Below, one piece after another: positions 29,363 to 39,763 of a DNA stretch of 64,000 bases. This DNA comes from Streptomyces platensis (GTDB lineage Bacteria; Actinomycetota; Actinomycetes; Streptomycetales; Streptomycetaceae), in NCBI RefSeq assembly GCF_008704855.1, contig NZ_CP023691.1, positions 5,270,001 through 5,334,000 of the forward strand, read 5' to 3'. The translations under genes and the position numbers were made by a program. Each line of letters opens with the position of its first letter. Positions within the stretch are counted from its first letter, which is position 1. The notes below the pieces were generated by a model. That model searched no databases, had not been told where the DNA came from, and saw nothing but the letters and a program-made list of their open reading frames with translations.

Positions 29363-30526
29363 ATGGGCACCCCCACGATCGAGTCCGAGGAACACCGCGC
29401 CCTGCGCAAAGCGGTCGCCGCCCTCGGCAGCCGCTACGGCCGGGAATACTTCGCCCGCGTCGTGGCGGAGGGCGCACACACCGACGACCTCTGGTCGGAG
29501 GCCGCACGGCTCGGCTACCTCGGCGTCAACCTCCCCGAGGAGCACGGCGGCGGAGGCGGCGGCATCGTCGAACTCTCCATAGTCCTGGAGGAGTTGGGCG
29601 CCGCAGGCTGCCCCCTGCTCATGATGGTCGTCTCGCCGGCCATCTGCGGCACGGTCATCGCCCGTTTCGGCACCGAGGAGCAGAAGCGGACCTGGCTCCC
29701 GGGCCTCGCCGACGGCTCCCGCAAGATGGCCTTCGGCATCACCGAACCCGATGCCGGCTCCAACTCGCACCGCATCACGACCACCGCCCGCAAGGACGGC
29801 GAGGACTGGGTCCTCAACGGCCGCAAGGTGTTCATCTCGGGCGTCGATATCGCCGACGCGACCCTGATCGTCGGCCGCACCGAGGACGCCCGGACGGGCC
29901 GCCTCAAGCCCTGCCTGTTCATCGTGCCGCGCGACACCCCCGGCTTCGGCCGCAGCCCGATCGCGATGGAACTCTCCGCCCCGGAGAAGCAGTTCGAACT
30001 GACCCTGGACGAGGTGCGGCTGCCCGCGGACGCGCTGGTCGGCGATGAGGACGCCGGGCTGCTCCAGCTGTTCGCCGGGCTCAACCCGGAGCGGATCATG
30101 ACCGCCGCCTTCGCCCTCGGCATGGGCCGCTACGCGCTGGGGCGGGCCGTCGACTACGCCGGTACCCGCCAGGTGTGGAAGGAGCCCATCGGCGCCCACC
30201 AGGCTGTCGCCCATCCGCTCGCCCAGGCTCATATCGAGCTGGAGCTCGCCCGGCTGATGATGCAGAAGGCGGCCCATCTCTACGACGCGGGCGACGATCT
30301 GGGTGCGGGTGAGGCCGCCAACATGGCCAAGTACGCGGCGGCCGAGGCCGCGGTGCACGCCGTCGACCAGGCCGTCCACACTCTCGGCGGCAACGGCCTC
30401 ACCCAGGAGTACGGCCTCGGCTCGATGATCACCGCGGCCCGGGTGGCGAGGATCGCGCCGGTCAGCCGCGAGATGATCCTCAACTTTGTCTCGCACCAGT
30501 CCCTGGGGCTGCCCAAGTCGTACTGA
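29363..30526 (+). CDS. Acyl-CoA dehydrogenase
   Basis: 387 residues, normal length. Conserved stretches: GYLGVNLPEEHGGGGGG, MAFGITEPDAGSNSHRI (FAD/substrate loop), WVLNGRKVFISG, and DQAVHTLGGNGLTQEYGLGS with the FAD-binding end. It oxidises acyl-CoA to enoyl-CoA, upstream of the carboxylase step in branched-chain catabolism. ATG 29363 has GAGGAGA upstream. It is followed by a TnpB element in place of the expected acyl-CoA ligase gene. Confidence 0.93.
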   Translation: MGTPTIESEEHRALRKAVAALGSRYGREYFARVVAEGAHTDDLWSEAARLGYLGVNLPEEHGGGGGGIVELSIVLEELGAAGCPLLMMVVSPAICGTVIARFGTEEQKRTWLPGLADGSRKMAFGITEPDAGSNSHRITTTARKDGEDWVLNGRKVFISGVDIADATLIVGRTEDARTGRLKPCLFIVPRDTPGFGRSPIAMELSAPEKQFELTLDEVRLPADALVGDEDAGLLQLFAGLNPERIMTAAFALGMGRYALGRAVDYAGTRQVWKEPIGAHQAVAHPLAQAHIELELARLMMQKAAHLYDAGDDLGAGEAANMAKYAAAEAAVHAVDQAVHTLGGNGLTQEYGLGSMITAARVARIAPVSREMILNFVSHQSLGLPKSY

Positions 30527-30578
30527 GGGCGGGACTGCGCTTGTCAAGGAAGCGGAGTCGTTTGCGGAGCCTGCTGCG

Positions 30579-30601
30579 TTGTCAGTGGTTCGCGCTAGCG
30601 T
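30579..30601 (+). promoter_or_regulatory. RecA-NDp (DNA-damage, PafBC-type) promoter of tnpB
   Basis: TTGTCAGTG (30579-30587), eight bases, then TAGCGT (30596-30601). This fits the actinobacterial LexA-independent damage-promoter consensus TTGTCRGTG-N8-TANNNT. The ribosome site GGGAGGAGG (30616-30624) and the ATG (30632) follow at sensible distances. Confidence 0.75.
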
Positions 30602-30631
30602 GGTCGCATCATTGTGGGAGGAGGTCTTTCC

Positions 30632-31840
30632 ATGCTGTCGGGCCGCAGGTACCGGCTTGAACTGACGGCTGAACAGTCCAAGCAGTGCCAAGAGTTCGGT
30701 GACATCTGTCGCGCCGTGTGGAACACCGGCCTCGAACAGCGCAGGGAGTACCGTCGGCGCGGCGTGTGGATGGACTATGTACCGCAGACTGCTGAACTCG
30801 CTGAGGCCAAGCCCGACCATCCGTGGTTGAAGACCGCGCCTGCACAAGTGCTCCAGCAGACTCTCCGGGACTTGGACCGTGCGTGCCGTGAACACGGCAC
30901 GTTAAGTGTCCGGTGGCGTTCGAAGATGCGGTGGTCTCCGTCTTTCCGGTTCCCAGCCGGGAAGAGCATTGCGGTGGAACGGCTGGGCCGCAAGTGGGGG
31001 CGTGTCAAGCTTCTCAAGCTGGGCTGGGTCCGGTTCCGCTGGTCTCGTCCTCTTGGCGGTGAGATCCGTTCGGCGACTGTCAGCCGGAAGGGCGGACAGT
31101 GGTTTGTGTCCTTTCTCGTGGACGAAGGGCGCGAGGCGCCGCAGAAGCATGCGCTGCCGGACACCGCTGTCGGCATCGATCGGGGCGTGACGGTGGCGGC
31201 CGTCACCAGCGATGGAACCTTCCACGACCGGCAGTTCATCGCTCCTGGCGAGACGGTGCGATACCGCAGGTTGCAGCAGAAGCTGGCGCGGCAGAAGAAG
31301 GGTTCTACGAACCGTCGCAAGACTGTTGCGGCGTTGGGCCGGATCGCGGGCAGGGCTGCCGATCGGCGCACTGACTTTTGCGCCTACACCGCGAATCGCA
31401 TCACAGCCCGCAAGGCTCTTGTGGTCCTCGAAGACCTGCGTACCCGGAACATGACCGCTAGCGCGTCGGGATCACTTGACCAGCCGGGCCGTAACGTCCG
31501 GCAGAAAGCCGGACTCAACCGAGCGATCCTCGACAAGGGCTGGCACAAGTTCGAACGAGCCTTACGCAACGCCGCTCGCCACACGGGCAGCCAGATTCTT
31601 CTCGTCAACGCCGCCTACACCTCGCAGACGTGTAACCGGTGCGGGCATGTGGATGCGAAGAGCCGCAAGAGCCAAGCGGCCTTCGAGTGCACCGCCTGCG
31701 GACACCGGGACCACGCTGATGTGAACGCGGCCAAGAATCAAAGGGACGCGGGGCTCGCGTTCCCAGCCTGTGGAGACCTCGGCACCAGCCGGTCCCCGAA
31801 GCAGGAACCTGTAAGCCGGGCGACCGGCCGAAACCCCTGA
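30632..31840 (+). CDS. tnpB: TnpB RNA-guided nuclease homologue
   Basis: 402 residues. The N-terminal OrfB HTH-like region (RRYRLELTAEQSKQCQEFGD) precedes a split RuvC nuclease domain: RuvC-I GIDRGVTV (Asp183), RuvC-II VVLEDLRT (Glu267), zinc ribbon CNRC (334/337) and CTAC (353/356), and RuvC-III HADVNAAKN (Asp363). All catalytic and zinc residues are intact, so it is likely functional. TnpB cuts DNA guided by an RNA made from its own right end and helps IS200/IS605 elements persist. The promoter upstream is of the DNA-damage type. It is inserted in the catabolic operon in the same direction. Confidence 0.93.
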   Translation: MLSGRRYRLELTAEQSKQCQEFGDICRAVWNTGLEQRREYRRRGVWMDYVPQTAELAEAKPDHPWLKTAPAQVLQQTLRDLDRACREHGTLSVRWRSKMRWSPSFRFPAGKSIAVERLGRKWGRVKLLKLGWVRFRWSRPLGGEIRSATVSRKGGQWFVSFLVDEGREAPQKHALPDTAVGIDRGVTVAAVTSDGTFHDRQFIAPGETVRYRRLQQKLARQKKGSTNRRKTVAALGRIAGRAADRRTDFCAYTANRITARKALVVLEDLRTRNMTASASGSLDQPGRNVRQKAGLNRAILDKGWHKFERALRNAARHTGSQILLVNAAYTSQTCNRCGHVDAKSRKSQAAFECTACGHRDHADVNAAKNQRDAGLAFPACGDLGTSRSPKQEPVSRATGRNP

Positions 31841-31880
31841 GAAGGGGAATCCCCGCCACCCATGGCGAGGAGGACGCCAA
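31740..31880 (+). ncRNA. Putative omega (guide) RNA of TnpB
   Basis: In IS200/IS605 elements the guide-RNA scaffold overlaps the 3' end of tnpB and the right end, and the guide is the flanking DNA. Here two hairpins (31834-31847 and 31851-31870) end exactly where host sequence begins; the guide would start GTTGCCGGACGAGTCG at 31881. The 5' limit is a guess. Confidence 0.45.
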
Positions 31881-32012
31881 GTTGCCGGACGAGTCGCCCC
31901 GTACAAAAAGGTGCGCCGCGTGGAATTCCTGGCCGGCGTGCCGCGCGCCACCACCGGAAAGATCCTGCGGCGCGAACTCCGCGCCAGGGAAAGGAGCTCG
32001 ACGCCCCGATGA
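31881..32012 (+). pseudogene. 3' remnant of an AMP-dependent acyl-CoA ligase (4-coumarate/cinnamate:CoA ligase type)
   Basis: The frame ending at TGA 32010-32012 reads VAGRVAPYKKVRRVEFLAGV followed by PRATTGKILRREL, the unmistakable C-terminal signature of adenylate-forming ligases with the catalytic PxxxTGKILRR lysine. Only the last 43 codons remain; more than 450 codons are missing and the break coincides with the right end of the TnpB element. The stop overlaps the start of the enoyl-CoA hydratase gene by ATGA, as in an intact operon. No 5' part is found in the window. From memory, S. coelicolor has a CoA ligase (SCO4383) at this position in a similar operon. Confidence 0.88.
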
Positions 32013-39008: not shown

Positions 39009-39031
39009 TTGTCAGTGGGATGCGTCAGAAT
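39009..39031 (+). promoter_or_regulatory. RecA-NDp-like promoter upstream of the DtxR gene
   Basis: TTGTCAGTG (39009-39017), eight bases, then CAGAAT (39026-39031), 40 bases before the start codon. The -35 block is identical to the tnpB promoter; the -10 deviates (C for T at its first base). It could be a damage-responsive or ordinary promoter. Confidence 0.45.
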
Positions 39032-39070: not shown

Positions 39071-39763
39071 ATGTCCGGACTGATCGACACCACGGAGATG
39101 TATCTCCGCACCATCCTCGAGCTGGAAGAGGAGGGTGTGGTGCCCATGCGCGCCCGCATCGCGGAGCGGCTCGAACAGAGCGGCCCGACGGTGAGCCAGA
39201 CGGTGGCGCGCATGGAGCGAGACGGCCTGCTTCAGGTCGCGGGCGACCGTCATCTGGAGCTGACGGAGGAGGGCCGCCGGCTGGCGACGCGGGTGATGCG
39301 CAAGCACCGCCTCGCCGAGTGCCTGCTCGTCGACGTCATCGGGCTCGAATGGGAGCAGGTGCACGCCGAGGCGTGCCGCTGGGAGCATGTGATGAGCGAG
39401 GCGGTCGAGCGCCGCGTCGTGGAACTGCTGCGGCATCCCACGGAGTCCCCGTACGGCAACCCCATCCCGGGGCTGGAGGAGCTGGGCGAGAAGACCGGGG
39501 GCGACCCGTTCCTGGACGCCGGCATGGTGAGCCTGATGGACCTGGACGCCGGGGCCGAGGGGAAGACCGCCGTGGTGCGCCGGATCGGCGAGCCGATCCA
39601 GGCGGACGCCCAGCTGATGTACACGCTGCGGCGGGCCGGTGTGCAGCCGGGCGCCGTGGTGAGCGTGACGGAGTCGCCGGCCGGGGTGCTGGTCGGCAGC
39701 AGCGGCGAGGCCGCCGAGCTGGACTCCGAGATCGCCTCGCATGTCTTTGTCGCCAAGCGCTGA
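39071..39763 (+). CDS. DtxR-family iron-dependent regulator (DmdR/IdeR-like)
   Basis: 230 residues. HTH at 1-70 (DTTEMYLRTILELEEEGVVP, then RARIAERLEQSGPTVSQTVA). The metal residues fall at the same numbers as in DtxR: Met10, His79, Glu83, His98, Cys102, Glu105, His106, so both metal sites are present. The C-terminal SH3-like domain is complete. It represses siderophore and iron-uptake genes when iron is bound. From memory the S. coelicolor orthologue is dmdR1 (SCO4394). No obvious iron box was spotted in this window. Confidence 0.93.
   Translation: MSGLIDTTEMYLRTILELEEEGVVPMRARIAERLEQSGPTVSQTVARMERDGLLQVAGDRHLELTEEGRRLATRVMRKHRLAECLLVDVIGLEWEQVHAEACRWEHVMSEAVERRVVELLRHPTESPYGNPIPGLEELGEKTGGDPFLDAGMVSLMDLDAGAEGKTAVVRRIGEPIQADAQLMYTLRRAGVQPGAVVSVTESPAGVLVGSSGEAAELDSEIASHVFVAKR

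Follow-up and report, generated by a model that had tools for sequence, protein, structure and literature searches.

In Streptomyces platensis, the tnpB gene of a solo IS200/IS605-type element is preceded by what is probably a DNA-damage promoter of the PafBC-dependent RecA-NDp class, placed inside the element. The element lies in a 64,000-nucleotide stretch of the chromosome (NZ_CP023691.1, positions 5,270,001 to 5,334,000; this whole stretch is the window, and coordinates count from its first letter). The promoter suggests that the elements carrying it may time their cutting of DNA to damage and repair. The features on which this reading turns are as follows.

30579-30601, + strand: predicted RecA-NDp/PafBC-type promoter, composed of TTGTCAGTG (30579-30587), an 8-bp spacer and the -10 element TAGCGT (30596-30601)
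30616-30624, + strand: Shine-Dalgarno-like GGGAGGAGG, 7 nt 5' of the ATG at 30632, read from sequence
30632-31840, + strand: tnpB, 402 aa, RNA-guided endonuclease of the TnpB family

The full site, TTGTCAGTGGTTCGCGCTAGCGT at 30579-30601, contains TTGTCAGTG-N8-TAGCGT exactly on the + strand and satisfies TTGTCRGTG-N8-TAnnnT exactly, a consensus drawn from the first-pass annotation of this DNA and from general background. It ends 30 nt upstream of the tnpB ATG, and the placement relative to ribosome site and start codon that the annotation had described is confirmed in the sequence, with transcription predicted to begin near 30607-30609; tnpB might instead start at an in-frame GTG at 30614. The hexamers TTGTCA and TAGCGT are 11 bp apart and therefore do not form a sigma-70 spaced pair. 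A scan of the window allowing one mismatch returned two matches, the exact site at 30579 and a one-mismatch site at 39009, against 0.06 expected in shuffles. The second (39009-39031, TTGTCAGTG-N8-CAGAAT) is one base off the motif and stands 39 bp 5' of an open reading frame (39071-39763) that by eye resembles a DtxR/IdeR-type metal regulator. LexA-type half-sites have the form GAACN4GTTC; none occurs within 30401-30700, which speaks against LexA/SOS control of tnpB.

Across the whole 8.5-Mb single-contig genome, TTGTCRGTG-N8-TAnnnT occurs exactly 32 times versus 0 for the reversed pattern. Similarly, 61 Streptomyces genomes hold 1507 exact sites versus 6 reversed (median 22 per genome, range 11-44), which suggests that the RecA-NDp regulon is sizeable throughout Streptomyces. 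Downstream frames were chosen for 30 of the 32 sites by a crude rule that made several poor choices. Among the 17 of these 30 proteins that were scanned, selected after reading the translations, ten act in DNA repair or replication (RecA, UvrB, UvrC, RuvC, UDG, MgsA/RarA, MGMT, an AlkZ-like glycosylase, DnaX and a UvrD-like helicase), two have no match and five belong to families without a clear repair role. The recA gene of the same genome carries the same promoter element as tnpB (TTGTCAGTGGCAGGCGTTAGCGT). In addition, the genome encodes PafC (HTH_PafC) near the Pup ligase PafA, along with a further WYL/WCX protein in the PafB position; PafB is assigned by position and domains only. Because the sites precede recA and repair genes in a host with pafB-pafC, the motif is read as the mark of a PafBC-type damage regulon, of which tnpB is by sequence a member. 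At the level of sequence, the promoter class proposed in the first-pass annotation is supported. RecA-NDp promoters are described as activated by PafBC (PMC6789036, PMC8223512), which is reported to be triggered by single-stranded DNA (PMC11804915), and SCO6735 of S. coelicolor, which has a RecA-NDp promoter, is reported to rise 5-fold after ultraviolet exposure (PMC5087735).

The motif is conserved within the element. Relatives 63-91% identical carry it 52-55 bp before the start codon, and L073 has a one-mismatch copy 48 bp before the start. All relatives except that of S. inhibens have different flanks, and the promoter to all appearance belongs to the element. Conservation across 13 copies is 0.99 for the 11 strictly fixed motif positions, 0.76 for the spacer, and 0.66 each for the 45 bp before and 37 bp after the motif. 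Comparison of the window copy with two S. himastatinicus copies gives a synonymous divergence (dS) of 0.79-0.88 and a nonsynonymous divergence (dN) of 0.11-0.13, with about half of the synonymous sites different. Within the 22-member clade, the motif is present in 13 of the 18 members without a tnpA signature nearby (12 exact, one with one mismatch) and in 0 of the 4 with tnpA upstream. This absence alongside tnpA may not hold for mycobacterial plasmid tnpA-tnpB pairs (56-60% identical, outside the 22-member clade), because near-motif sites stand at their annotated tnpA start, with one mismatch in four of five and two mismatches in one of five. In L295-L297 and L299, all mycobacterial plasmids, TTGTCGGTTGTGGGTGTTACGTT is one base off the motif and overlaps the annotated tnpA start. 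The true start may for that reason be downstream of the annotated one, and damage control may extend to the entire operon.

Beyond this clade, a less biased sample of 89 loci was drawn from about 130 listed places, several of which are pieces of one gene; the places outside the sample are mainly fragments. The exact motif stands upstream in four loci (L034, L039, L041 and L054) and with one mismatch in L141, versus none reversed or on the other strand; L034 alone among these carriers belongs to the window's clade. Addition of the L054 and L039 families gave 210 matched loci, of which 203 remained after removal of near-identical copies; 177 of those had at least 100 bp of upstream sequence and a start placed to within 25 residues. 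Their upstream regions hold 24 exact motifs and 27 within one mismatch, versus 0 and 0 reversed; the 24 of 177 is not a frequency, because families were included on account of one motif-bearing member. Two-mismatch matches number 10 forward versus 3 reversed. Single-linkage clustering places the carriers in 4 of 9 clusters at 50% identity and in 5 of 14 at 60%. A FastTree phylogeny (n = 175) shows 12 label changes, 10 of them forced by well-supported branches, and the count of separate gains is unsure because the tree has long branches. In the L054 and L039 families the motif sits about 21-33 bp before the start codon, and the exact carriers L186 and L202 come from another taxonomic family of the class (coded f19). 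The L041 TnpB is closest to IS607_TnpB, at 341 bits just below the cut-off of 350. Two side observations concern these lineages. In the L041 region (L256, 1027-1799), a CRISPR-like array of 13 repeats with a 61-bp period adjoins the TnpB gene that has the exact motif. Eight L054-family tnpB genes (L162, L163, L230, L234, L242, L243, L249 and L251) carry, at the motif's place, CTGTCAGTC-N8-TAGGTT or TACGTT (TAnnTT), two bases off, which is perhaps a diverged motif or perhaps the site of a different regulator.

Plasmids also carry the site. In 16 regions read among 62 plasmid matches listed, the exact motif precedes tnpB in five: Streptomyces sp. Caat 7-52, NBC_01006 and NBC_01343, the last two sharing one insertion site, and the mycobacterial Mycolicibacterium sp. 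TY81 and M. aubagnense. Two more have one mismatch before tnpB (M. avium pHP17a and R. opacus); the remaining regions comprise four with a one-mismatch site at tnpA, three with two mismatches and two with none. The motif is therefore not absent from related elements, an absence that the first-pass annotation had named as grounds for doubt: it is found in relatives, in distant TnpBs and on plasmids.

Left ends are shared across families in a way that would fit transfer of the promoter. The left end of L072, with the motif removed, finds 7 of 9 motif-bearing L054-family regions, at 76-90% over 33-68 bp, and, at E<=1e-3, none of the regions that lack the motif. The L034 left end matches 7 of the 9 as well, together with one motif-less region, L057. 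That of L156 also matches five motif-less and three two-mismatch regions, these matches being confined to its first 60 bp and clear of the promoter. As the left ends match across families whose TnpBs are about 27% identical (27% between the L054 and window proteins), elements seem to have swapped left end and promoter with one another.

By sequence, the protein is an intact nuclease. It scores 248.5 bits against the NCBIfam guided_TnpB model NF040570 (cut-off 100) and matches three Pfam domains, and the RuvC acidic residues D183, E267 and D363, matched to solved TnpB-like chains, are present, as are two zinc-binding CxxC pairs (CNRCG at 334 and CTACG at 353). With these residues intact, the reading as a catalytically dead TldR-like regulator is rejected. 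The gene is the sole PF07282 match in the genome, and a search of the whole genome for the Y1 transposase tnpA gave no PF01797 match. The boundaries of the element, read by eye from side-by-side upstream sequences of 13 clade members, and the adjoining sequence are as follows.

30527-30578, + strand: left-end remnant, running from the stop codon of the acyl-CoA dehydrogenase gene to the promoter, without the hairpin of relatives
31841-31880, + strand: right end, ending in GAGGACGCCAA (GAGGA-GTCAA in relatives), the expected 3' part of the omegaRNA
31881-31900, + strand: expected guide sequence, the flank adjoining the right end, by analogy with known TnpB elements
31881-32012, + strand: remnant of an AMP-dependent synthetase, its last 43 codons, an in-frame by-eye match to the end of the intact L309 synthetase

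The hairpin that several relatives have at the left end is by eye missing from the window copy, while the right-end ending is conserved in the side-by-side reading. The right end joins the synthetase in frame at 31881. The L309 synthetase, at the same place as L267, is identified as AMP-binding; the 43-aa piece by itself has no Pfam match. The neighbouring genes in the window are an acyl-CoA dehydrogenase, whose end forms the left flank, and an enoyl-CoA hydratase. Among nine relatives examined of the 28 with a full-length match, the dehydrogenase is followed by the synthetase in L267, L269, L271 and L276, by an apparent enoyl-CoA hydratase in L266 and L282, and by another gene in L264, L265 and L268; the L266 gene was named by eye, and a scan of a guessed stretch there gave no hydratase match. 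The simplest reading is insertion into the synthetase gene, followed by a deletion that starts at the end of the dehydrogenase gene and reaches into the element's left end. Comparison with empty sites shows the synthetase deletion and yields no target-adjacent motif (TAM), because the left flank is deleted. The window copy shares its left junction with the S. inhibens copy (L066), in which tnpB appears frameshifted.

A sequence of events can be proposed, in which transcription, induction, omegaRNA supply and purpose are all inferred. Upon DNA damage, PafBC would direct RNA polymerase to the tnpB promoter as it would at recA. The induced mRNA would give TnpB and, from its 3' end, the omegaRNA, which TnpB is reported to produce from its own mRNA (PMC10278001), so that both would rise together with RecA. 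Guided cuts at unoccupied insertion sites would then coincide with raised RecA and repair enzymes, and with cuts so timed, an occupied copy, on chromosome or plasmid, would serve to repair the break, converting empty sites (homing). The first-pass annotation had proposed re-copying of the element at cut sites. After excision this falls away for the window copy, which has neither a Y1 transposase nor the left-end hairpin, whereas empty sites could be cut and then repaired from an occupied copy. Because no tnpA was found and the left end is damaged, only cutting and homing could still operate in this copy. On a wider scale, the PafBC-type promoter may be a portable control module gained separately by several actinobacterial TnpB lineages, partly via shared left ends; RNA-guided homing would then be turned on at the same time as recombination, and the elements would act as damage-timed gene drives. 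The lineages concerned would be IS605-like, with one nearest IS607, and would span Streptomyces, other actinomycete families, mycobacterial plasmids and perhaps Rhodococcus. We regard this wider proposal as evenly balanced, and a homing purpose, taken by itself, as falling a little short of an even chance.

Several observations weigh against these proposals. The coupling is recurrent across TnpB lineages and not universal, as the first-pass annotation had allowed it might be: 150 of the 177 sampled regions have no match within one mismatch, and the exact motif is missing from 25 of the first 30 L054-family loci, from 28 of 30 L039-type loci and from 5 of the 18 solo clade members. Phage TnpBs, in six regions among 30 phage matches listed, have no match with up to two mismatches in 700 bp upstream. 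The window copy itself lacks tnpA, has a damaged left end and yields no TAM, all of which count against homing in particular. As to the regulator, NCBIfam gave no match for the PafB-like or PafC-like protein. For S. venezuelae, a first search is reported to have suggested a lack of conservation of the mycobacterial motif (PMC9380542); the counts, from 61 genomes that may or may not include S. venezuelae, are at odds with this for the genus Streptomyces.

The strongest alternative accepts a real promoter and proposes that it was kept mainly for being quiet, low TnpB levels in undamaged cells being selected and damage induction being a useless by-product. A self-targeting nuclease is costly, and the TnpB clusters without a motif-bearing member (five of the nine at 50% identity) use other promoters. 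Many other quiet promoters exist, however, and the repeated use of one class, together with its sharing along with the left end, would then be coincidence; we consider this explanation unlikely. It is less likely still that TnpB has become a host damage-response gene and is no longer the element's homing tool. The intact catalytic residues, a dN/dS of about 0.14 against two other copies, and the absence of tnpA and left-end hairpin would agree with such a role, but homologues at E<=1e-70 occur in a patchy 11 of 392 Streptomyces genomes, they stand at different sites, and the S. inhibens copy at the same site looks frameshifted. Moreover, the low dN/dS informs on the family more than on the window copy, because it was measured between copies at other sites. 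That the conserved bases serve the left end, in binding or folding for transposition and not in transcription, is highly improbable: in the window's clade the motif does lie inside the left end, beside a conserved small inverted repeat, but recA and repair genes in this genome are preceded by these 12 bases at identical spacing, members of the L054 and L039 families have them close to the start codon, and all four copies with an adjacent tnpA lack them. A chance resemblance to the consensus is the least probable of all, since, although any 64-kb window has promoter-like strings and a three-mismatch scan gave a second, weaker site, the reversed controls are nearly empty and copies inserted elsewhere keep the motif at a constant position.

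To our knowledge, little is known about the control of TnpB nucleases in their natural hosts. A damage promoter, if true, would help explain how a self-targeting nuclease is tolerated and would couple guided breaks with recombination. A literature search, with most subscription journals outside its scope, found no paper combining TnpB and PafBC and, among the matches listed, no title or abstract that deals with control of tnpB by a damage promoter. The separate parts are known; the coupling of a damage promoter with tnpB would be new. A recA mutant treated with mitomycin C is reported to over-express nine transposases and a resolvase, with families not named in the available text, and this result was not used (PMC8151990). 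A TnpB gene drive has been described in plasmids, where empty sites are cut, element-free plasmids are cleared and occupied copies take over; damage control does not appear in the available part of that paper, in which 'SOS' and 'promoter' have 0 occurrences (PMC11870625). ISDra2 of Deinococcus radiodurans (tnpA-tnpB) is likewise an IS200/IS605 element with TnpB whose transposition rises upon irradiation. There, the accessible account reports no irradiation-induced transposase expression and credits single-stranded DNA (PMC2806898), whereas here a transcriptional link is predicted, for tnpB alone. The RecA-NDp/PafBC regulon of mycobacteria and of SCO6735 is described with the same motif and spacing as the tnpB site (PMC5087735, PMC8223512). 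Its known targets are host genes, whereas the target here would be a mobile element's nuclease. SOS-controlled prophages and integrative elements are mobile DNA that responds to host DNA damage through LexA or phage repressors. In contrast, the tnpB promoter would use the LexA-independent activator PafBC, and would do so for an RNA-guided nuclease.
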